From Muriicola marianensis (GTDB lineage: Bacteria > Bacteroidota > Bacteroidia > Flavobacteriales > Flavobacteriaceae): 64,000 bases of DNA. The translations under genes and the position numbers were made by a program. The stretch covers positions 310,001 to 374,000 of the forward strand of contig NZ_BMFH01000002.1 in the NCBI RefSeq assembly GCF_014638095.1. The letters run 5' to 3'. Positions 4,716 to 63,954 of this stretch are shown here, piece after piece (position 1 is the first letter of the stretch; each line of letters opens with the position of its first letter). The notes under the pieces were generated by a model. That model saw only the letters and a list, made by a program, of their open reading frames with translations. It was not told the origin of the DNA and searched no databases.

Positions 4716-6947
4716 TTAATACTGCAGTCTTACGCCCAGGTAAGCCCCCAGGGGATGTCCGGGTCGCAAACCTGCAGGCACCCTGGACACTGCGTATTTC
4801 TCATCCAGCATGTTGATGAAATTGAGGGTCAGACTTGCATTGGGGTTAATGTGATAAGCCCCGGCGAGATCCAGCACAAAACTGGAAGGAACCCGTTCGT
4901 CCGATGGGATGGACCCCTGTCCTGCCAGTGTTCGGAATTCACCGTTGTACCGGCCACTGAGATTGATGTCGAAGGTTTTGTGTTCCAGAGACAGGGTAGT
5001 GTTGAATTGATGTTTGGAGATGTAGGGAAGTTCATCTCCTGTGGTCACGTCGCCCCATATATCTTCTGCACTGCCAAAACTACTCTGGAATTCCGTGTCC
5101 GTGTAGGTGTAGGCAAAAGTGAGGGGCAAACTCAATTTGTCATGGGATTGAAGGAAATCGTAGTTGAGGAGGAGTTCGATCCCCTGTACTTTGACCTCCC
5201 CGGCATTGAACTGTTCCAGGCTGCCGGTTCCTCCCGTGGCTGCAAGGTCGCTCCCCAGCAAGTTGCTGTAATCATTGTAGAAGCCGATAAGCTCCCCGGA
5301 GATCCCTTTAAATCTGAATCGGGAACCCAGTTCCAAATTGATACTCTCCTCGGCTTTTTCATCCTCCCTGCTGGTAGGAGGCGCAAATCCCTTGTGAACT
5401 CCACCAAAAATGGAGAATCCATCGAAGTTGTAGTTGAATCCAACCCCTGGGATCCAGACGTCTGTCCGGTTCTCGCGCACAGACAATGAAGTTCCCAGGC
5501 GTTCTATGTCGCTGGTGCCGAAGTCTGTCCGGCCCAGGCGAATGTTCTCGTATCTGAGGCCGGGAGTCAGTGTGAGTTCTTTGTATTTAAACTTGTAAAG
5601 GGCGAATGTCGCAAGGGCTGTGGCATCGCTTATCCTGTTGGCATCCGTGCCCGGTACACCTGAGGAGGTACGGATCATACTGCCGTCTGTTATTCGGTAT
5701 CCGTCGATGAACTGGAAACGGTCCTCTTCATCGTAGTGGTATCTCACTCCTATCTCAATGTCGTGAAAGGTATTTTCCCCAGTCCAGTGATAGTCGAACT
5801 TGGTCTGCAGCCCTTTTGAAATATAACCCCGTGCATTCGCCTTAACGAGCAGAGCATTATCAGGACTATCAGCTGCTCCCGTGATCACATCCAGGTATTC
5901 AGAATTATTCGAAGGGTCGGAGAGGATGCCGGAAACACCGCGGCGTTCCCCGTTCAGAGTTACCCCATCCAGTTTGTACCAGTTCCTGGTAAAGCCGTTG
6001 TAATAGGCATTCGTTGTGATATGGAAATTGTCACTAAAGGCCAACAGGTGAGTAAGCATGAACTGTTTGTGGTCATTGACCATTTCGTCTTCGGCGGTTC
6101 CCGCATATCTCCGGAAAGGAGTAGCACTGAAATCCGCATCGCTCAGACCCACATAGGTCTCATTGGATTCCTCGTCCGAGTACTGGAACTTGAATTCGAG
6201 GGATTGCTGAAGGCTGGCTGCGGGGCCGGTATTCACCCTGAATTTAGCCACGAGGTCATTTTTATCGAATCCCGTATTTCCTCTGGAATCCAGGTTTTTA
6301 AAACCATCGGAATTGAAATTCAGGTACTCTATCATATAACCAAACCGCTCTTTGGAATCTCCAAGTTTTGCGTGCAATCTGCCGCTGTTGTAATTTCCAT
6401 AGGAGGCTGAGAGAAATGCGTTAAAATCATCGGGGATCTGTGTCGAGAGCATGTTGATCGCTCCTCCGGTGGTAAAGGGGCCGTATTGAACCTGGCTGCT
6501 CCCTTTGAGGATCTCTACTGCCTGCATTCTTGCAACAGAGGGAAAATAGTAGGCGGCCGGGGCGCTGTAAGGTGCCGGGGCGATCAGCACTCCGTCTTCC
6601 ATCAGGGTGATTTTTGCGCTCCTTTCGGGGGAGGTTCCTCTGAGACTGATATTGGGCCGGAGTCCAAATCCGTCTTCTTCGTAGTAATTCACCCCGGGTA
6701 CCGATCTCAGCACCCTGTTGATATCTGAGTAGTTAAAAGTGGCGAGTTCCTGAGGAGAAATGTAAAAAGCCGAACCGGTGCGATTCTCAGCCTGATACTT
6801 GCTGCCCAGGATCACATTGGCGGAGAGCACTACTTCATCGAGGCGGATGAGGTTGGAGTCCTTGGATTGTGTTATAAGCCGGGCGTTTTGGGCCAGCATC
6901 GAACAGGAAAATAATACGGTGACGAGGGTGAGTAAGTGTTTGTACAT
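4716..6947 (-). CDS. TonB-dependent receptor, FecA-like (iron-chelate type)
   Basis: 743 residues starting MYKHLLTLVTVLFSC, with a signal peptide ending near LAQ. The plug domain (about 35-165) carries the ferric-citrate-receptor pattern GLRPNISLRGTSPERS, LMEDGVLIAPAPY and VEILKGSSQVQYGPFTTGGAIN; the barrel follows to a C-terminal YLGVRLQY strand. There is no N-terminal FecR-signalling domain and no carboxypeptidase-like repeat. Likely imports a ferric chelate across the outer membrane. An in-frame extension upstream to 7016 would run through the promoter and is rejected. Regulation looks metal-dependent: see the two inverted repeats at 6950-6968 and 7022-7040 around the -7 box. Confidence 0.92.
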   Translation of the reverse strand: MYKHLLTLVTVLFSCSMLAQNARLITQSKDSNLIRLDEVVLSANVILGSKYQAENRTGSAFYISPQELATFNYSDINRVLRSVPGVNYYEEDGFGLRPNISLRGTSPERSAKITLMEDGVLIAPAPYSAPAAYYFPSVARMQAVEILKGSSQVQYGPFTTGGAINMLSTQIPDDFNAFLSASYGNYNSGRLHAKLGDSKERFGYMIEYLNFNSDGFKNLDSRGNTGFDKNDLVAKFRVNTGPAASLQQSLEFKFQYSDEESNETYVGLSDADFSATPFRRYAGTAEDEMVNDHKQFMLTHLLAFSDNFHITTNAYYNGFTRNWYKLDGVTLNGERRGVSGILSDPSNNSEYLDVITGAADSPDNALLVKANARGYISKGLQTKFDYHWTGENTFHDIEIGVRYHYDEEDRFQFIDGYRITDGSMIRTSSGVPGTDANRISDATALATFALYKFKYKELTLTPGLRYENIRLGRTDFGTSDIERLGTSLSVRENRTDVWIPGVGFNYNFDGFSIFGGVHKGFAPPTSREDEKAEESINLELGSRFRFKGISGELIGFYNDYSNLLGSDLAATGGTGSLEQFNAGEVKVQGIELLLNYDFLQSHDKLSLPLTFAYTYTDTEFQSSFGSAEDIWGDVTTGDELPYISKHQFNTTLSLEHKTFDINLSGRYNGEFRTLAGQGSIPSDERVPSSFVLDLAGAYHINPNASLTLNFINMLDEKYAVSRVPAGLRPGHPLGAYLGVRLQY

Positions 6948-6949
6948 AT

Positions 6950-6968
6950 TATTTAGACTAATTAAATA
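6950..6968 (-). promoter_or_regulatory. Candidate metalloregulator operator, promoter-proximal
   Basis: 19-bp inverted repeat TATTTA-gactaat-TAAATA, two bases before the receptor ATG and downstream of the expected transcription start. It shares the half-site ATTTAGACT with the second repeat at 7022-7040. Size and symmetry resemble Fur/DtxR-class sites; which regulator binds is not known. Confidence 0.5.
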
Positions 6969-6986
6969 TAAGATGTTCTCAGAGGA

Positions 6987-6994
6987 CAAAAGTA
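6987..6994 (-). promoter_or_regulatory. -7 element of the FecA-like receptor
   Basis: On the minus strand TACTTTTG (CAAAAGTA as written) matches TAnnTTTG, 39 nt before the receptor ATG and between the two candidate operators. Confidence 0.65.
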
Positions 6995-7021
6995 GACCGC
7001 AATTGCCGCATTTCAAAATTA

Positions 7022-7040
7022 ATTTAGACTTTTTCTAAAT
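7022..7040 (-). promoter_or_regulatory. Candidate metalloregulator operator, distal
   Basis: Perfect 7-5-7 inverted repeat ATTTAGA-ctttt-TCTAAAT, 27 bp upstream of the receptor -7 element. It has the same ATTTAGACT half-site as 6950-6968. Confidence 0.55.
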
Positions 7041-7042
7041 AA

Positions 7043-8647
<1,605 letters not shown>

Positions 8648-55495: not shown

Positions 55496-56063
55496 AAAGC
55501 TTTTTGAAGCCGAACGAGCCAAAAAGCACAGCATGAAGGAAGGACACGAGGCCCGGTTTGAGCAGAGGCTGGATGAGGCATTTCCTCAAAAGCGCAGGTC
55601 TTTCTATTACCTGTTTGGCATGGCCGCTTCTGTGGTTGTGCTCCTGGGGCTGGGCTTCGTCTTCTACCAACAGATGCAGACAGAAATCCCTGTAAAGACC
55701 ACTGTCGTTGACAAACAACCTGTTTCTGAAGAGCCCTATGCGATCTCTCTGGGAGACCTCTCTCCGGATCTCAAAAAGGTGGAGACCTATTATGTGAGCT
55801 CGATCAACCTTGAGCTTTCGCGCCTCGATCTCTCTGAGGACAATAAAGAAATAGTTGACGACTTTATGGGTCGGCTTGCCGAATTGAACCTGGAATACAG
55901 GGACCTGAACAGGGAGCTGAACGAGATCGGTCCCAATGAACAGACCATTGAGGCCCTGATCCGCAACCTCCAACTGCGACTGCAACTCCTGTTAAAACTA
56001 AAGGATAAATTAAATCATCTAAAATCATCAAACAATGAAACAGTTACGAACAACACCGTTTAA
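55467..56063 (+). CDS. Membrane-anchored protein, putative anti-sigma factor
   Basis: 198 residues. A cytoplasmic N-terminal stretch of about 44 residues (MKKNMKQDLRKLFEAERAKKHSM) precedes one membrane helix (about 48-66), with a periplasmic helical C-terminal part ending in leucine-rich IRNLQLRLQLLLKLKDKL. There is no HxxxCxxC ZAS motif, so it is not a classical zinc anti-sigma factor; the role is inferred from operon position, overlap and topology. Alternative ATG at 55479. Overlaps both neighbours by exactly 29 nt. Confidence 0.8.
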   Translation: MKKNMKQDLRKLFEAERAKKHSMKEGHEARFEQRLDEAFPQKRRSFYYLFGMAASVVVLLGLGFVFYQQMQTEIPVKTTVVDKQPVSEEPYAISLGDLSPDLKKVETYYVSSINLELSRLDLSEDNKEIVDDFMGRLAELNLEYRDLNRELNEIGPNEQTIEALIRNLQLRLQLLLKLKDKLNHLKSSNNETVTNNTV

Positions 56064-57483
56064 AGGATTCACTTTGGCACTGGCCATGATCTGTACGGGT
56101 GCCATCGCGCAGAAACAGACCAAGACCTACAAAGAGGAATTCAAAATAGAACCCAATGCCGTCATCGACATCAATACGAGCTATGCCGATATCCAATTTG
56201 AAACCTGGGATAAAAACGAGGTGGTGGTGGAAGGAACCATTGAACTGGAAGGGGCTACTGAGGAAGAAGCCAGGGCCTATTTTGAGAATTCGGGGATTGA
56301 GATTCTGGGCAACAGCAAAACCGTTGAGATCAGGACTTCCGGGAACAGCGGTTGGGGCCGCATAGCCGGAGCCTGGCCTTCGGCTGAAATGATGGAACTG
56401 GACTTCCGCATTCCCGATGTGGATGCCATCATCCATTCCATCGACATCCCTGAGATACCCCCTATGCCTGAGATGCCACCCTTGCCACCTATGCCCGATT
56501 TTGAATTCGACTATGAAGCCTTTAAAAAAGACGGGGAGAAGTACATGAAAAAATGGAAGAAGGAATTCAACAAGAGCTTTGACAAGGAGTACCAGGAGAA
56601 AATGGAGGCCTGGGGCCGGGAATTTGCTGCCAGGGCCGAGGCCAGAAAAGACCTGATGGAAGAAAGACGTGAAGTGATGGAAGAACAAAGGGCTGAGATG
56701 CGGGAGCAAAATGAACAGCTTCGGGAACAGGCTGAGCAGGCCAGGGAACAGGCCATGAAGGACCGGGAGCGAGCCAGGGAAGAAGTCCGCAAGGTCAGGG
56801 AGCAAATCAGGACGGAAATGAGGAATTCAGACGAATCTAACTTCTTTTTCCGTTCGGCTGATGGGGAATCCAAGTCGTACAAGGTTAAAAAGACCATCAA
56901 GATCAAAATGCCTAAGTCGGCCATCCTGAAAATGAATGTGCGGCATGGGGAAGTAAAACTGGCGGCCAATACCAGGAACATTCGTGCAACCTTGTCTTAC
57001 GCAAGGTTGCATGCTGCCAGTATTGAAGGTAATGATACAGAGATCAACGCCGCCTACACCCCCGTGAAAGTAGCACAATGGAAATACGGAAATCTGAACA
57101 CAAGCTTTACCGATCAGGTGGAGCTCGATGCCGTGACGGATCTGAACCTGAACGCTACCTCTTCCGAGGTGAAGATCAACAAGGTGCTCCGGAACCTGAT
57201 CAGCAGGAACGAACTGGGGGCTATTTATATCAGCACTGTAGATCCCAATTTTAAAAAGATCGATATAGAAGTGAGGAACGGGGAATTTGAATGTGTTCTT
57301 CCCAACACCCCCTTTGCAGTATCAGTGAGAAATACCCAATCCGATTTCAATTTCCCTGCTTCCTGGATACTTAAAACCACCAAAGACGGTCCACGCGTCC
57401 TCTACACCGGAAATTCCGGCAAAGGCAATTCAGACAGGGTCTTTAAACTCAACACGGCCTATAGTTCCGTAGTATTGCAATAG
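56035..57483 (+). CDS. Exported coiled-coil protein with beta-helix-like (DUF4097-type) ends
   Basis: 482 residues; signal peptide to about AIAQ (residue 26). First ~135 residues: beta-rich, opening EFKIEPNAVIDINTSYADIQFETWDKNEVVVEG as in adhesin-like DUF4097 proteins. Then a proline/methionine hinge (about 139-157), a long Glu/Arg/Lys coiled coil (about 165-262, with EEQRAEMREQNEQLREQAEQ repeats) and a second beta-rich part (about 275-482: ILKMNVRHGEVKLAANTRN). The coiled-coil insertion is unusual for this family. Presumably periplasmic or surface-exposed and sensed or controlled by the ECF pair. Confidence 0.88.
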   Translation: MKQLRTTPFKGFTLALAMICTGAIAQKQTKTYKEEFKIEPNAVIDINTSYADIQFETWDKNEVVVEGTIELEGATEEEARAYFENSGIEILGNSKTVEIRTSGNSGWGRIAGAWPSAEMMELDFRIPDVDAIIHSIDIPEIPPMPEMPPLPPMPDFEFDYEAFKKDGEKYMKKWKKEFNKSFDKEYQEKMEAWGREFAARAEARKDLMEERREVMEEQRAEMREQNEQLREQAEQAREQAMKDRERAREEVRKVREQIRTEMRNSDESNFFFRSADGESKSYKVKKTIKIKMPKSAILKMNVRHGEVKLAANTRNIRATLSYARLHAASIEGNDTEINAAYTPVKVAQWKYGNLNTSFTDQVELDAVTDLNLNATSSEVKINKVLRNLISRNELGAIYISTVDPNFKKIDIEVRNGEFECVLPNTPFAVSVRNTQSDFNFPASWILKTTKDGPRVLYTGNSGKGNSDRVFKLNTAYSSVVLQ

Positions 57484-58420: not shown

Positions 58421-59101
58421 CTAGTGACTATCCTTCTTGAGGTACTCCGCAAAATTCTCCTTAAACCGATTGAGGCGGGGGATGGAGACATTGCGGATGT
58501 AAGAGTCATTGGGATGTTTACGCTCGTAATCCTGGTGGTATTCCTCGGCCTTCCAGAAAGTAGTAAAGGGCTTGATCTCAGTGACGATAGGCTTTCCGTA
58601 CACCCCACTCTCGTCCAGAGCTTTTTGGTACTCCTCAATGATCTTGCGCTCTTCCTCGTTCTTGTAGAAGGCGATAGAGCGATACTGCGGCCCCCGGTCC
58701 GGTCCTTGCCGATTGAGGGTAGTCGGGTCGTGAGAGCCGTAAAAGACCTGTACCAGTTCAAAGAAACTCACTTCTTCCGGATCGTAATAGACCTCTACGG
58801 CTTCGGCATGGGTGGTACGACCGTAACTCACCTGTTCATAGGTAGGATTTTCCTCTGTTCCGCCTGCATAGCCCGAAACTGCTTCCTTCACGCCTTTTAC
58901 GCTTTCGTAAATAGCCTCCACACACCAGAAACAGCCGCTGGCAAAATAGGCGGTCTCGTATTTCTGAAGTTCGGTATCTGAGAGTTTCTCTTCCTGTGCC
59001 AGGGGTTCACCGGCCTGCTGGTCTGGACTTTTGGCCTTGGTCTGGCAACTCATAGAAACCAGGGCAATCACAGTAAAAAAGGTAGTTTTAAGCAATTTCA
59101 T
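58421..59101 (-). CDS. msrA: Peptide methionine-(S)-sulfoxide reductase lipoprotein
   Basis: 226 residues. Lipobox SMSC (Cys19) makes it an envelope lipoprotein. Catalytic motif AYFASGCFWCVEAIYESVKGV with Cys57 (nucleophile) and Cys60; SGYAGGTEENPTYEQVSYGRTTHAEAVEVYYDP (landmarks SGYAGG and HAEAVEV), FYGSHDPTTLNRQGPDRGPQYRS. Reduces methionine-S-sulfoxide in exported proteins. The MsrB domain is not fused and not adjacent. Confidence 0.96.
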   Translation of the reverse strand: MKLLKTTFFTVIALVSMSCQTKAKSPDQQAGEPLAQEEKLSDTELQKYETAYFASGCFWCVEAIYESVKGVKEAVSGYAGGTEENPTYEQVSYGRTTHAEAVEVYYDPEEVSFFELVQVFYGSHDPTTLNRQGPDRGPQYRSIAFYKNEEERKIIEEYQKALDESGVYGKPIVTEIKPFTTFWKAEEYHQDYERKHPNDSYIRNVSIPRLNRFKENFAEYLKKDSH

Positions 59102-59208: not shown

Positions 59209-59910
59209 ATGCTGACAATATCTGACGACTTTACAACTCCTTCGGGTGCCGGACCCGTAATGGATGCCTCCATTCCATGGGAGGACTACACACCTCTTGA
59301 TCTGAGTACTGCCAACAGGGAATTGGAAGGAATAGACCTGGGTGATCCTGCGGCCTGCCAGGGATATATAGATTTAGTCCTGAGGCGGAATTCTGCCAGG
59401 ATCGCCTATGGGGGATATCTGGAACAGCGCAATCTCTACCGGGGTAATGCGGGTTTTGAATCGGGTGAAGAACCACGTGATATTCACCTGGGGATTGATT
59501 TCTGGGCCGAGGCCGGGACGCCGGTCCTCGCCCCTCTTAGCGGAAAGGTCCACAGTTTTAAGAACAATGCAGACAAGGGAGATTACGGCCCTACCATCAT
59601 CCTGACCCATGAGACTGGCAAAAACACTTTTTATACCCTCTATGGCCATCTTTCCCTCGAATCACTCGAGGGACTTTACCCCGGAAAACAGATAGGAAAA
59701 GGGGAGGTACTGGGATCACTGGGTACTCCTGATATCAATGTGAACTACGCGCCTCACCTGCATTTCCAATTGATTCTTGATATGGAAGGCAAACAGGGAG
59801 ATTACCCCGGGGTATGCATGGCCTCTGATTTGGAATTTTACAAACGGAATTGTCCGGATCCCTTTTTAATCCTAGGTTCACAAGGACTTAAGGATCACTT
59901 CCGGCGGTGA
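59209..59910 (+). CDS. M23-family metallopeptidase (LytM/peptidoglycan endopeptidase fold)
   Basis: 233 residues, no signal peptide recognisable. LytM metal site: IHLGIDFWAEAGTPVLAPLSG (H and D of HxxxD) and APHLHFQLILD (HxH), plus the YGHLSLESLEGL strand. Peptidoglycan cross-link cleavage is the family role, but lack of an export signal and the preceding ~80-residue N-terminal domain leave its target open. Overlaps the convergent membrane-protein gene by 16 nt. Confidence 0.9.
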   Translation: MLTISDDFTTPSGAGPVMDASIPWEDYTPLDLSTANRELEGIDLGDPAACQGYIDLVLRRNSARIAYGGYLEQRNLYRGNAGFESGEEPRDIHLGIDFWAEAGTPVLAPLSGKVHSFKNNADKGDYGPTIILTHETGKNTFYTLYGHLSLESLEGLYPGKQIGKGEVLGSLGTPDINVNYAPHLHFQLILDMEGKQGDYPGVCMASDLEFYKRNCPDPFLILGSQGLKDHFRR

Positions 59911-60353: not shown

Positions 60354-60480
60354 ACCTGCTAAGTTAATGGATTACCGGATAGAGTTAATTACGCCAAACT
60401 GAATTCACTTGCAGTTTCACATAATTATTTGTTCCGAAGCTTTCGATATTAGGAATATTAATTAGGCAGGCACCGATTAA

Positions 60481-60840
60481 CGACCCCTTTTTCCGATTAG
60501 CGGTTTTGAGGTTCCGTGACGTTCACCGATGAATTTTTACACTTTACCCGGATTCTCGCCAGATACCGAAAAATAAGGGTTTTTCAGCGAACGACACCCC
60601 GGTGAAACCCCTGTCATCGCGTTTTATTTATATAAAACGCAAGACATGAAAACGCTCGTAACTTTCTTCTTCTTCTTCCTGATCAGCTTCGCTGCCCAGG
60701 CTCAGAATAACACTCCTGAAGTAAAGGTGGAAACTGCAAAAAAAGAAGTGGTTGCTCCTGCTGCTGAGAAGGAAAGCGTTGCCCGTCTGTATCGTTTTAA
60801 GAACAGCCGTATCAAAAAAGAGCTTTCTTTTAAGACTTCT
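60481..60840 (+). repeat. Direct repeat copy A (leader plus secreted-peptide gene)
   Basis: 360 bp matching 63571-63930 at a constant offset of 3090 bp, with seven single-base differences (60485, 60515, 60545, 60585, 60603, 60618, 60667). The non-coding part (60481-60645) has six of them, the coding part one. Similarity falls off abruptly on both sides: upstream of 60481 and after 60840, 24 nt before the end of the stop codon. No inverted terminal repeats or transposase are visible. The 292-bp gap upstream of the peptide gene (60354-60645) otherwise holds nothing I can identify. Confidence 0.93.
60619..60640 (+). promoter_or_regulatory. Leader hairpin just before the peptide start (copy A)
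   Basis: Perfect 9-bp arms GCGTTTTAT / ATAAAACGC around a TTAT loop, ending 5 nt before the ATG at 60646, and identical in copy B. It could mask the ribosome entry region or be a protein-binding palindrome. No T-tract, so not a terminator. A second possible pairing is GGGTTT (60577-60582) with AAACCC (60605-60610). Confidence 0.6.
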
Positions 60841-60864
60841 AGAGGATCTTCTAAACTTGCCTAA
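60646..60864 (+). CDS. Small secreted basic peptide (copy A)
   Basis: 72 residues: MKTLVTFFFFFLISFAAQAQ is a signal peptide with cleavage expected after AQAQ. The mature ~52 residues have an acidic-and-basic N-half (KVETAKKEVVAPAAEKES) and a strongly basic end, SVARLYRFKNSRIKKELSF then KTSRGSSKLA; no cysteine. Family not recognised. Frame is conserved against copy B (63736), with one substitution in the signal peptide (F8L) and a different last eight residues. Coding status is supported by the signal peptide and by sequence conservation. No consensus promoter box in the leader. Confidence 0.8.
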   Translation: MKTLVTFFFFFLISFAAQAQNNTPEVKVETAKKEVVAPAAEKESVARLYRFKNSRIKKELSFKTSRGSSKLA

Positions 60865-60971
60865 GAACTAGTTAGGGAAATGCTGTTTTTTGATTTCGCC
60901 CGGCACTGAGAAATTATAATCCATCTCTTCAATCGTTTTAAAGCCATATTCCCCAAAAAGACTATCCGCTA

Positions 60972-61367
60972 TTAAGTAGGCATTTGAGGAGGAATTAGCA
61001 TCGTCCAGTTCGCATGTACCATTTTCCACCGGGATCCGGTTAGTGAATATACCACAGTGGCTGCCCATTTTGTGGAGGGGCTGCCATCGAGTAAGCTGGG
61101 GTGGTACTGGTAGGACAGTATAACGGTATCGCCGTATTTCCTTGCCTTCAGCCCGGCCATTTCATAGGTGTGAGCCGGAAGCTCGGCAAATGTTTTTTTT
61201 GCGTAGGCAATGACATTTTCCATTCCCTCAACCAATTCCTGTGCACCTAGATTGTCAAAATAGATAAGATCCGGATGTGCGTGGATGGCATATCCTTCGG
61301 CTTTTCCACTGGCCCATCCATCCAGCGCTTCCCTTTCTAATGCAATAACCTGGTCAATTGCTTTCAT
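60972..61367 (-). CDS. SnoaL-like / NTF2-fold (DUF4440-type) protein
   Basis: 131 residues, no signal peptide. VIALEREALDGWASGKAEGYAIHAHPDLIYFDN is the typical N-terminal helix-strand start (landmarks REALDGW and DLIYFDN), and the end WKMVHANWTML closes the cone-shaped fold. Small-molecule binding or isomerase-type roles occur; none can be assigned. Overlaps the cyclase gene by 14 nt on the same strand, so the two are likely translated together. Confidence 0.85.
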   Translation of the reverse strand: MKAIDQVIALEREALDGWASGKAEGYAIHAHPDLIYFDNLGAQELVEGMENVIAYAKKTFAELPAHTYEMAGLKARKYGDTVILSYQYHPSLLDGSPSTKWAATVVYSLTGSRWKMVHANWTMLIPPQMPT

Positions 61368-63315
61368 GATTCACTTTATTAAAAAATTGATTTAAATACA
61401 TTTGATTCAGCAACTCCTGATATTCCGGCAGATCTCTCAAACGATCAAAAATAGGATCGATACCTAAGTAAGGCATATTCGGATCTCGTATCTCATAGGC
61501 CTTTTTGAGGTATTCGATTGCTCTTTCTGAATTTCCGGCCCGCGTGTACAAGGTGGCTATCTGCCAGGGGGTGTGATAGGCACCGTCCCGATCTTCACTT
61601 TTGTATTCAGCGACTCCGGAAAGGGCAGTCGGGTAGCCACCTTCTCTAAACCCTTCCTCCAGGATTTCTGCAGACCTGGCTTCTCCTTTTTCAAGGTAGG
61701 ATACTTTAAACATCTCATATGACCTATCATATTCCCCAAGGTTGAAATACACGGTCCTCAGGGTGGAGTAAGCGATGGGATGATTTCCTCTGTCCTTAAT
61801 TATATTCAGTAAGATGGCTTCGGCACTTCGAAATTTCCGGGCATAGTTAAGGACCATGCCGTAAAGGGACTGTATGAGTTCATTGAAAGGGTCTAGTTGA
61901 ATGCTGAGTTCGGCCTCTGCTACGGCTTCCTGAAGCCGGTTGGTAATGGCCAGTAAATGGGCAAAATATGCCCTGCCTTTGGCATTATTGGGATTTAATT
62001 CTAAGGCGCGTTTAAAGGCCTTATATGCCTTGTCCCATTCCCAGTCGATCCATGTATGGAGAGAAGCCCGCCAAAAGTAAGATTCTGCATTTTCACCATC
62101 AAGGGACATGGATCTGTACATATTCTTGTAGACATTCGGCAAGGCCTTAGCCTGATTGACGAATCCCATTTGAGCCCTGCCAAGCCATACACCGGCCATG
62201 GCAGTATAAGCCGGCGCAAAATTCGGATCCAGCTGAGTCGACTTCAAAAAACATTCCAGTGATCGGTCCAGTCCCTCTTTGCTTAGTTGTTCCCAGTAGT
62301 GTACTCCTTTTAAATAGGTTTCATAGGCTTCAGGGATGACTTCATAATAATTTTCAACCTGATCTCTTTCTCTTTGGGTCAGTTTGGCATCGATCTCTTC
62401 TGTAATGTCCTTTACCAGTTCGTTGTACATGGAAAGGACATTTTTAAGCTCCCGATCGTAAGATTTGGCCCAAAGATGCTCTTCTTTAACAATCGTTTTT
62501 ATGAGCTGGACCTGTATTCTGATGTGATTTTTATCTTTGAATACAGTGGCTTCGACAATGGCATCTACCCCGAGATCCCCGGCAATGTGCAACATGGGCG
62601 AAGTAGTATTCCGATAACGCAGTGTTGATGTCCTGGAGATGACCCTCAGGGAGTTGATCTGAGCGAGCTCGGTTATCAGAGCATCATGCATTCCATCTAC
62701 GAAAAACTGTTGTTCGGGATCTCCTGAAAGGCTGTGAAAAGGTAGGACGGCTATAGACTCTATTATGTCTGACCCACTCAATTCCTTTTTCCTGTGATGA
62801 GAGGTCTTCGGGAATTCCGGGTCGGCTATAGCATACGTGGTAACAGGCAGTGCCACATTCTTTAAAGGGAGTTCACCGAGTTTATCAAAGATGATATCAC
62901 AGTCATTTCCAATGGATTCTCGAACTTTTGACGAGAGAAAGATCCCGCCAGGATCTGCAATGGATTGCAACCTTGAGGCAATGTTAACGCCGTTCCCGAA
63001 GACATCGCCCTGCTCCACGGTAACTTCCCCAAAGTCGATCCCGATTCTGATCTTACATAGCAAGTTCCTGGCGTCCAGTTGTATATCCCTGGCGCATAGT
63101 GTGGCATCGAGAGGGTTTGCGAATCGTGCAAGCATTCCATCTCCCATCTCTTTGATCACCTCCCCATCATGTTTTCTGATCTGCTCCAGGTGAATCGCCC
63201 TGCTTTGTCTCAACAGCTCCAGGGTTTTGGTTTCGTCCTGTCCCATCATGGTGGTATACCCCACAATATCGGTAAACATGATAGCAGCTAGCTGCTTTTC
63301 AACGGACTGATGCAT
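61354..63315 (-). CDS. Class III adenylate cyclase with TPR domain
   Basis: 653 residues, no membrane segment. Cyclase domain about 8-165: MFTDIVGYTTMMG with metal Asp16, VIKEMGDGMLARF with Lys55 and metal Asp59, GDVFGNGVNIASRL with Asp104 (base recognition), Asn111 and Arg115. Lys55 plus Asp104 is the adenine-selecting pair, so cAMP is predicted rather than cGMP. Next IAVLPFHSLSGDPEQQFF begins a TolB/FlgO-like domain (about 188-320) often found in such proteins, then TPR repeats (about 330-640). Followed 14 nt inside by the SnoaL-like gene. It lies between the two peptide-gene copies but is transcribed the opposite way. Confidence 0.92.
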   Translation of the reverse strand: MHQSVEKQLAAIMFTDIVGYTTMMGQDETKTLELLRQSRAIHLEQIRKHDGEVIKEMGDGMLARFANPLDATLCARDIQLDARNLLCKIRIGIDFGEVTVEQGDVFGNGVNIASRLQSIADPGGIFLSSKVRESIGNDCDIIFDKLGELPLKNVALPVTTYAIADPEFPKTSHHRKKELSGSDIIESIAVLPFHSLSGDPEQQFFVDGMHDALITELAQINSLRVISRTSTLRYRNTTSPMLHIAGDLGVDAIVEATVFKDKNHIRIQVQLIKTIVKEEHLWAKSYDRELKNVLSMYNELVKDITEEIDAKLTQRERDQVENYYEVIPEAYETYLKGVHYWEQLSKEGLDRSLECFLKSTQLDPNFAPAYTAMAGVWLGRAQMGFVNQAKALPNVYKNMYRSMSLDGENAESYFWRASLHTWIDWEWDKAYKAFKRALELNPNNAKGRAYFAHLLAITNRLQEAVAEAELSIQLDPFNELIQSLYGMVLNYARKFRSAEAILLNIIKDRGNHPIAYSTLRTVYFNLGEYDRSYEMFKVSYLEKGEARSAEILEEGFREGGYPTALSGVAEYKSEDRDGAYHTPWQIATLYTRAGNSERAIEYLKKAYEIRDPNMPYLGIDPIFDRLRDLPEYQELLNQMYLNQFFNKVNHESN

Positions 63316-63570
63316 TTAGAGGAAGGTTGGTTACACAATCCTGAGTGGCCTGACCTTTAAATTAAGGTTTTAATCTCAATTTAAAAAGCATAAAAGATTG
63401 AAAATGTTGGGATTATGTAGATTCCAAAGACGATCCTTGTTAAGATCAAATCAAATAAATATTCAGATAAACAGAGCCATAACCTTTAGAGGAAACATTC
63501 ACCTCAGCAAGCCTGTTTCGATATCAAAGGGGTACGAGTGCGGTAAATGAACGAATTGAGGATAGATAAA
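63316..63570. other. Non-coding stretch upstream of the cyclase and peptide copy B
   Basis: 255 bp, AT-rich, between the cyclase start and the repeat copy B (the full gene-free stretch runs 63316-63735). I see no gene and no exact TAnnTTTG box on either strand. TTTAGAGGAA occurs twice (63315-63324 and 63485-63494), the first covering the end of the cyclase ATG. It should contain the divergent promoters of the cyclase operon and of the peptide gene. Confidence 0.5.
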
Positions 63571-63930
63571 CGACACCTTTTTCCGATTAGCGGTTTTGAG
63601 GTTCTGTGACGTTCACCGATGAATTTTTACACTTCACCCGGATTCTCGCCAGATACCGAAAAATAAGGGTTTTTTAGCGAACGACACCCCGGCGAAACCC
63701 CTGTCATTGCGTTTTATTTATATAAAACGCAAGACATGAAAACGCTCGTAACTTTCCTCTTCTTCTTCCTGATCAGCTTCGCTGCCCAGGCTCAGAATAA
63801 CACTCCTGAAGTAAAGGTGGAAACTGCAAAAAAAGAAGTGGTTGCTCCTGCTGCTGAGAAGGAAAGCGTTGCCCGTCTGTATCGTTTTAAGAACAGCCGT
63901 ATCAAAAAAGAGCTTTCTTTTAAGACTTCT
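63571..63930 (+). repeat. Direct repeat copy B (leader plus secreted-peptide gene)
   Basis: Same 360-bp unit as 60481-60840, seven differences. Identity stops abruptly after 63930; the following 24 nt differ at about a third of positions yet keep the reading frame and the SKLA end. Confidence 0.93.
63709..63730 (+). promoter_or_regulatory. Leader hairpin just before the peptide start (copy B)
   Basis: Identical to the hairpin of copy A (9-bp arms, TTAT loop), 5 nt before ATG 63736. The only nearby difference between copies is one base outside the stem. Confidence 0.6.
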
Positions 63931-63954
63931 AAAAGCATATCTAAACTGGCATAA
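63736..63954 (+). CDS. Small secreted basic peptide (copy B)
   Basis: 72 residues; signal peptide MKTLVTFLFFFLISFAAQAQ, then the same mature sequence as copy A up to the C-terminal SFKTS, ending KSISKLA instead of RGSSKLA. The C-terminal 28 residues hold nine Lys/Arg and one acidic residue. Same leader, same hairpin. Only 46 bp of sequence follow, with no visible terminator, so I cannot tell whether the array of copies continues beyond the window. Confidence 0.8.
   Translation: MKTLVTFLFFFLISFAAQAQNNTPEVKVETAKKEVVAPAAEKESVARLYRFKNSRIKKELSFKTSKSISKLA

Follow-up and report, generated by a model that had tools for sequence, protein, structure and literature searches.

Near-identical secreted-peptide genes behind a shared DNA control region in marine flavobacteria suggest a common switch with adhesin operons and small-RNA arrays

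Introduction

In the LytTR peptide regulons of bacteriocin production and competence, regulators such as ComE, PlnC/D and AgrA use a repeated operator, built from 9-bp direct repeats of the TACGTTNAT type with 12–13 bp between them. The genes described here are like those regulons in encoding small secreted peptides and in having, ahead of each member, half-sites in pairs spaced by about two turns of the helix. They are unlike them in that a Sec-type signal (assigned by eye) stands where those peptides have a double-glycine leader, and in that our scan, a weak one, tied no LytTR gene to the operator. Two further comparisons are instructive. As in the Vibrio Qrr circuits, several near-identical small RNAs occur, possibly under a response regulator; unlike in those circuits, secreted peptides are multicopy as well, and the small RNA has no Rfam match in the loci tested. 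Like rRNA operons and tuf genes under gene conversion, the copies are alike within genomes and different between them; here, however, what is homogenized is a short gene for a secreted peptide plus the operator ahead of it, and not everywhere.

The main other place where we find the operator is ahead of adhesin/SprF operons of the SprB type, which belong to the type IX secretion system (T9SS; PMC9723704, PMC9143113). For remFG-sprCDBF of F. psychrophilum, sigma54 (SM4) and SM5 promoters have been reported, and the available portion of that paper mentions no such operator, unlike what we see at the operons here (PMC9723704).

Here, we analyze a 64,000-nucleotide stretch of contig 2 of Muriicola marianensis (the window; the genome is 3.03 Mb in 3 contigs) together with related loci, and find that marine flavobacteria carry several near-identical copies of a peptide gene, every one preceded by the same large block of control DNA.

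Results

Copies of a peptide cassette in Muriicola marianensis

The original prediction described a 360-bp unit, a 165-nt leader plus most of a secreted peptide, that occurs twice in the window, and both units are present (60481–60840 and 63571–63930, offset 3090 bp), with 7 differences, 6 of which fall in the first 165 nt. The two cassettes are, however, not the full number at this locus, as a third copy of the unit lies just beyond the window, 1.4 kb past copy 2 (contig 2:375011–375370; Table 1). Whole-genome BLAST with the unit returned the copies at E values of 2e-187, 1e-177 and, for copy 3, 2e-168; copy 3 differs from copies 1 and 2 at 14 and 19 bases, respectively. A TauE-type permease gene lies between copies 2 and 3 and a DUF349 gene behind copy 3.

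A fourth, divergent peptide gene with its own operator, read from a GTG start, is located on contig 1 near 810270, next to M14 peptidase and amidohydrolase genes that have a HisKA_2 kinase gene ahead of them; by eye, the neighbors of this copy recur elsewhere. The histidine kinase gene near it occupies 6832–8049 of locus L111 on contig 1. Looking for a pheromone-type exporter or sensor beside the peptide, we found this HisKA_2 kinase at the fourth copy and no HisKA_2 kinase at the window locus; some other genomes likewise have HisKA_2-like kinase genes close to their peptide genes, as judged by eye.

Table 1. Features of the window and of related loci in M. marianensis and other genomes (window coordinates unless a contig or locus is given)
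Feature	Position	Strand	Basis or remark
Predicted operator, cassette 1	60472..60594	+	Alignment A1 of 32 upstream blocks; R1 match E 5e-26
Palindrome GCGTTTTATTTATATAAAACGC	60619..60640	+	Sequence; sits where relatives have the -7-like promoter box
Secreted peptide copy 1, 72 aa	60646..60864	+	
Predicted operator, cassette 2	63564..63684	+	R1 match E 3e-25
Palindrome ahead of ATG, copy 2	63709..63730	+	Sequence
Secreted peptide copy 2, 72 aa	63736..63954	+	
Secreted peptide copy 3	contig 2:375176-375391	+	Outside the window
M23 peptidase, recurrent neighbor of peptide cassettes	59209..59910	+	PF01551
MsrA, recurrent neighbor	58421..59101	-	PF01625
SnoaL-like gene, apparent bystander	60972..61367	-	PF13474; 0/28 peptide loci in other genomes
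Class III cyclase with TPRs, apparent bystander	61354..63315	-	PF00211; 0/28 peptide loci in other genomes
Small-RNA-like units, M. marianensis	contig 1:1939552-1940002 (L254)	-	
Small-RNA-like units, further loci	L234, L238, L241, L267-L296		

The peptide belongs to a multicopy family without annotated relatives

Searching 149 genomes, one per genus, with the peptide gave matches at E ≤ 0.01 in 25, of which three (G062, G089 and G122) were discarded as false, placing the family in 22 of the 149 sampled genera, usually in multiple copies. The discarded matches are the weakest (E 2e-4 to 9e-3), and the locus was inspected for G122 alone, where the match is a longer, different protein. Removal of that false locus (L063) leaves 28 of the 29 peptide-match loci from other genomes, one of them (L059) doubtful. 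A scan of named genomes gave 198 stretches, and 79 loci were examined, including loci from Maribacter, Zobellia, Kriegella, Eudoraea, Muriicola, Ulvibacterium, Arenibacter, Zeaxanthinibacter, Allomuricauda and others.

In the peptide, a Sec-type signal (by eye) is followed by a linker that varies and by a basic, conserved C-terminus with the consensus VARLYKFKNSRVKKALSFTTKRNKAKLA; the net charge of the M. marianensis peptide copy is +8. No family scored above cut-off in Pfam (11 peptides scanned) or NCBIfam (6 scanned), the same scans found no C-terminal sorting domain of type IX secretion cargo, and a PDB sequence search with the peptide returned no relative. The AlphaFold2 model is weak overall (mean pLDDT 67, pTM 0.26), the best-modeled part of the mature peptide being a C-terminal beta-hairpin (residues 44–52 and 55–64), with a pLDDT of 86 for block 51–60. 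Searching the PMC library with sequence words of the peptide and of the small RNA described below gave no paper, a result that says little.

The shared upstream block is a predicted operator and promoter

What had been called a 165-nt leader is a predicted repeated-site operator followed by a promoter. In an alignment of 32 upstream blocks (A1; L040_6261 was left out, L055_114 was too short, and L190 was left out of a further alignment, A6), the operator spans about 125 bp and consists of six repeated half-sites of about TCGATWAARTGYA: pair (1,2) is direct and pair (3,4) inverted, the members of each being 20 bp apart, and two looser half-sites follow. These half-sites resemble the LytTR type, and their start-to-start spacing of 20 bp is one or two less than in LytTR operators.

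Operator and peptide travel together. In M. marianensis, the operator model R1 gave four strong matches (E 3e-8 or better), each ahead of a peptide gene, with the next at E 0.009. Across the 79 named loci, the operator is present at 127 of 138 peptide ORFs and ends 49–62 nt ahead of the ATG (28 nt in one case); the 11 ORFs that lack it comprise 3 at contig ends and 8 divergent paralogs. Conversely, 8 of 135 operator matches do not precede a peptide gene: 2 sit at contig ends, 5 fall on the strand opposite a genuine operator, and 1 is partial. In the sampled loci, from part of which R1 was built and which share some genomes with the named set, 54 of 65 peptide ORFs have the operator, one of these at 204 nt and doubtful. 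In G102, an operator lies right after an M23 gene (contig 1:2230574–2230694; L341 4574–4694), with no recognizable peptide gene of at least 60 aa behind it.

The upstream block is shared, as originally described, but it does not look like an RNA leader: the 32 leader sequences form no consensus structure (5 pairs, -0.89 kcal/mol), and no Rfam family reached its gathering score in the leader or small-RNA regions (best STnc40, 34 vs. 45 bits). The flavobacterial sigma-A -7 box is TAnnTTTG (PMC9723704). The pattern TAnnTTT[AG] occurs at -25 to -38 in 13 of 34 family members, compared with 1.4 in base-shuffled controls; it is absent from the three M. marianensis copies, which have the palindrome in its place.

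Copies often evolve in concert across operator and gene

Identity per 20-nt bin was compared among the copies of 10 multicopy genomes. In seven (M. marianensis, G126, G103, G001, G032, G135 and G102), the operator-to-stop block is all that the copies have in common, with 70–100% identity per bin from -160 to the stop, a transition in the bin -180 to -160, and 5–50% in the bins next outside; in M. marianensis, similarity goes down to 70–85% over the last 20 nt. Where lengths are equal, ORFs of copies in these seven genomes are 93–100% identical, and the M. marianensis copies are 93–96% identical to one another.

Cassette positions, adjacent to M23, DUF349 or TspO-like genes, are common to different genera. 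One layout, M23–peptide–gene–peptide–TspO-like gene, is found in both G126 and G103 (the TspO-like gene assigned by eye in G126); its two copies are 99% identical within G126 and 100% within G103, vs. 69–70% between these genomes. The DUF349-adjacent copy of G126 (180 nt, at a contig start) is 98% identical to the other two copies of that genome, vs. 64% to the M. marianensis copy at the corresponding position. Across genera, positional counterparts are 64–71% identical. Because within-genome copies are more alike than positional counterparts between genera, as found in M. marianensis, G126 and G103, we conclude that the copies evolve in concert, most likely by gene conversion, which is the simplest reading. 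The pattern is not universal. The first array copy is only 74–75% (G108), 77–78% (G056) and 63% (G135) identical to its neighbors, copies at separate loci of one genome are 65–83% identical (L053, G106 and G050), and pairs in G050, G056 and G108 share their flanks too, marking ordinary duplication.

These data bear on how the original prediction accounted for the repeat. A recent segmental duplication does not fit the unrelated flanks of the M. marianensis copies or the presence of the family in 22 of 149 genera, and the null of a purely local tandem duplication falls because the peptide, with its operator and usually in several copies, occurs in those same 22 genera. A cassette family under a shared upstream block is supported by the linkage and by the pattern in 7 of 10 genomes, although "homogenized in place" describes it better than "spreads," because cassette positions are common to different genera.

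Weaker versions of the operator recur ahead of adhesin operons and some small-RNA arrays

Among the matches listed for the 149 genomes, R1 reached E ≤ 0.01 in at least 81 of them. We inspected 23 of its non-peptide matches (E 2e-7 to 5e-4), with many more present at E 1e-4 to 6e-3. Sixteen lie ahead of adhesin or SprF genes, or between sixA and a gene for a secreted protein or an adhesin, with gene names assigned by eye (G024, G029, G141, G045, G097, G109, G069, G088, G040, G066, G005, G082; G135, G106, G086 and G102); of the other seven, one is ahead of another large secreted-protein gene (G107) and six are elsewhere. The operator thus recurs ahead of adhesin operons. These non-peptide versions are weaker than the peptide ones and occur also in genomes without a peptide match, so the upstream block is not tied to the peptide alone.

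In M. marianensis, the non-peptide matches are weak (R1, E 0.009–2.7; a second search, R2, E 2e-4 to 0.07). One R1 match (E 0.009) stands about 140 nt ahead of a gene that is followed by PorP/SprF and whose 2142-aa product carries TSP3 repeats together with a CHU_C type IX domain; matches on contig 1 near 199450, 398600 and 2233044 are unexplained.

Fifteen non-peptide R2 matches were inspected in other genomes, 3 of which are at small-RNA arrays and 12 elsewhere. The three arrays, in G103, G056 and G120, comprise 3–4 tandem units between sodA- and purF-like genes. Such a small-RNA-like unit is about 70 nt long, starts with CCATAGCATAAGTAGGTTAAG and is often tandem. The 21-nt start pattern (≤ 1 mismatch) is found in 108 of the 149 genomes, one per genus, and every one of the 22 peptide genomes has at least 3 copies of it, as do 13 of 127 others. 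The 77 units compared come from 34 loci, and 59 of them are distinct; directly behind the searched 21 nt, a further 19 nt hardly vary, and compensatory changes occur in the terminator hairpin. Half-sites are frequent upstream of the units, with 14 in 14.6 kb (7 of 34 loci) vs. 4 in 107 kb elsewhere; without the three loci that had been found through the operator, there are 7 in 12.7 kb (4 of 31 loci) vs. 2 in 79.6 kb. At least in some genomes, the operator also stands ahead of the small-RNA array.

A LuxR-type response regulator is a candidate operator-binding protein

A gene for a LuxR-type response regulator (M. marianensis contig 1:454073–454699) follows the distribution of the peptide, with orthologs in 19 of 22 peptide genomes vs. 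1 of 127 others (G051), counts that are uncorrected for shared ancestry. Matches were found in 25 genomes, of which 20 were counted as orthologs (at least 46% identity; G106 partial) and five, at 31–34%, were left out by a cut chosen after the list had been seen. Three genomes have the peptide without a regulator ortholog (G056, G057 and G135), and adhesin operators are present in genomes without one.

The regulator gene may carry operator half-sites itself. The half-site pattern occurs at -700 to -300 in 10 of 17 regulator loci, compared with 1 occurrence in the remaining 54.7 kb of these loci and 1 in 115.6 kb of other loci, although both the pattern and the window were chosen once the loci had been inspected; without the AACG variant, 3 of 17 loci remain (3 occurrences in 6.8 kb vs. 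the same controls). Because the half-site pattern is partly circular and falls to 3 of 17 loci without that variant, we regard this protein as a candidate only for binding the operator.

About 430–590 nt upstream of the regulator, most of loci L297–L313 have a conserved TGCATTT.AACGAAAA, and a possible small ORF lies between it and the regulator gene. A run of secreted-protein genes is also found beside the response regulator on M. marianensis contig 1 (L106 4030–7985).

A LytTR regulator was considered and gained no support: the 15 half-site pairs in 32.7 kb around the 10 LytTR genes of M. marianensis are about the shuffled rate (0.33/kb); the scan is a weak one, with chance-like pair numbers at known targets too.

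The intervening cyclase appears to be a bystander

On the minus strand between copies 1 and 2, a cyclase gene (PF00211 plus TPRs) with an overlapping SnoaL-like gene (PF13474) is arranged as first described. In the 28 peptide loci from other genomes (5–19.5 kb each), neither cyclase nor SnoaL occurs (0/28 for each); M23 peptidase and MsrA genes are found in 11 and 12 of them. Cyclase matches at E ≤ 1e-30 exist in 45 of 149 genomes, and near-full-length relatives besides that of M. marianensis in G106, G001, G129 and G002 only (4/148), with one cut by a contig end in G037. These relatives are on contigs without the peptide (some assemblies being fragmented) or, for G002, in a genome without it; at the 8 cyclase loci scanned, neither SnoaL nor peptide turned up within flanking stretches of at most 1.5 kb. 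The link between peptide and cyclase that had been suggested from position therefore fails in these comparisons, and the cyclase looks like a bystander.

The window also encodes, at 56035–57483, a 482-aa secreted protein with no Pfam match, whose relatives adjoin MsrA in L043, L046, L049 and L060.

Discussion

The control sites shared by peptide genes, adhesin operons and small-RNA arrays suggest a common switch. We favor, at a probability of roughly 0.65, a reading in which the cassettes are expression units, kept alike by conversion, within one operator-defined regulon that includes the adhesin operons. Each cassette would be a complete expression unit of operator, promoter and small Sec-exported peptide gene; several copies per genome would give higher output, and gene conversion would keep many of them alike across operator and gene, being confined to that block because it alone remains alignable. 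One transcription factor acting on the operator would then control the peptide, the operons for type IX-secreted adhesins and SprF, and some small-RNA arrays, and such joint control would amount to a surface or lifestyle switch, in whose program the peptide would serve the surface or periplasm as a component made in bulk.

Parts of this reading differ in strength. The computation itself establishes the cassette limits, the concerted pattern, the linkage of operator and peptide, the absence of RNA structure and the recurrence of the operator ahead of adhesin operons, whereas we infer gene conversion as the process, a common operator-binding protein, with the LuxR-type response regulator as candidate, and an effect of gene dosage. 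A single regulator probably drives both peptide cassettes and adhesin operons through the same composite site and, in some genomes, the small-RNA array too. That the peptide is a bulk-produced surface or periplasmic component is the weakest step, our best guess from the company it keeps but with the odds against it. Very unlikely is an attachment or density switch of Bacteroidota in which the LuxR-type regulator, under operator control, would drive multicopy peptides, multicopy small RNAs and giant adhesins from one composite site, and in which the peptide would be an autoinducer whose basic C-terminus acts back on an envelope sensor of the producer.

Other explanations take up particular parts of the evidence. 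The cassette could be a mobile element, operator and gene being copied as a unit to new places: its ends are sharp and fall at functional limits in 7 of 10 genomes, the genes between the M. marianensis copies are unrelated, the G126 copies are on different contigs, and two G050 arrays lie about 130 kb apart. Such a unit is too small for a transposase, however, its boundaries have no common end motif or direct repeat in the 10 genomes inspected by eye, and the positions common to different genera speak for copies that stay in place, which makes mobility unlikely. Three highly identical neighboring copies would also be expected if a local segment had simply been duplicated in tandem not long ago, without broader significance, and genuine flank-sharing tandem duplicates do occur in G056, G050 and G108; against this stand the unrelated flanks in M. 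marianensis, the copies at counterpart positions in other genera, and the breadth of the family and its operator (22/149 genera), and we consider it highly improbable.

The length and conservation of the upstream block, and the palindrome ahead of the ATG, which might fold as a hairpin, could instead point to a transcribed regulatory RNA common to the copies, riboswitch-like or a small-RNA target. Yet conservation falls on short sites that recur in both orientations at a spacing of 20 bp, Rfam and the 32 aligned sequences offer neither match nor consensus fold, and a -7-like box lies close ahead of the ATG in 13 of 34 members, albeit in none of the M. marianensis copies; we judge an RNA leader very unlikely. 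Least probable is one signaling module of peptide and cyclase, for which adjacency in the M. marianensis genome alone speaks, set against the 28 peptide loci elsewhere (5–19.5 kb) with neither cyclase nor SnoaL and near-full-length cyclase relatives that sit apart from the peptide in 4 of 148 other genomes.

Together, the reading of cassettes within an operator-defined regulon points to an undescribed marine flavobacterial regulon whose members annotation readily misses, combining a peptide family for which our searches gave no Pfam, NCBIfam or PDB match, a small RNA without an Rfam match in the loci tested, and giant surface adhesins. It also offers a clean natural case in which the extent of a promoter can be read, with no experiment, from how far gene copies have been homogenized.
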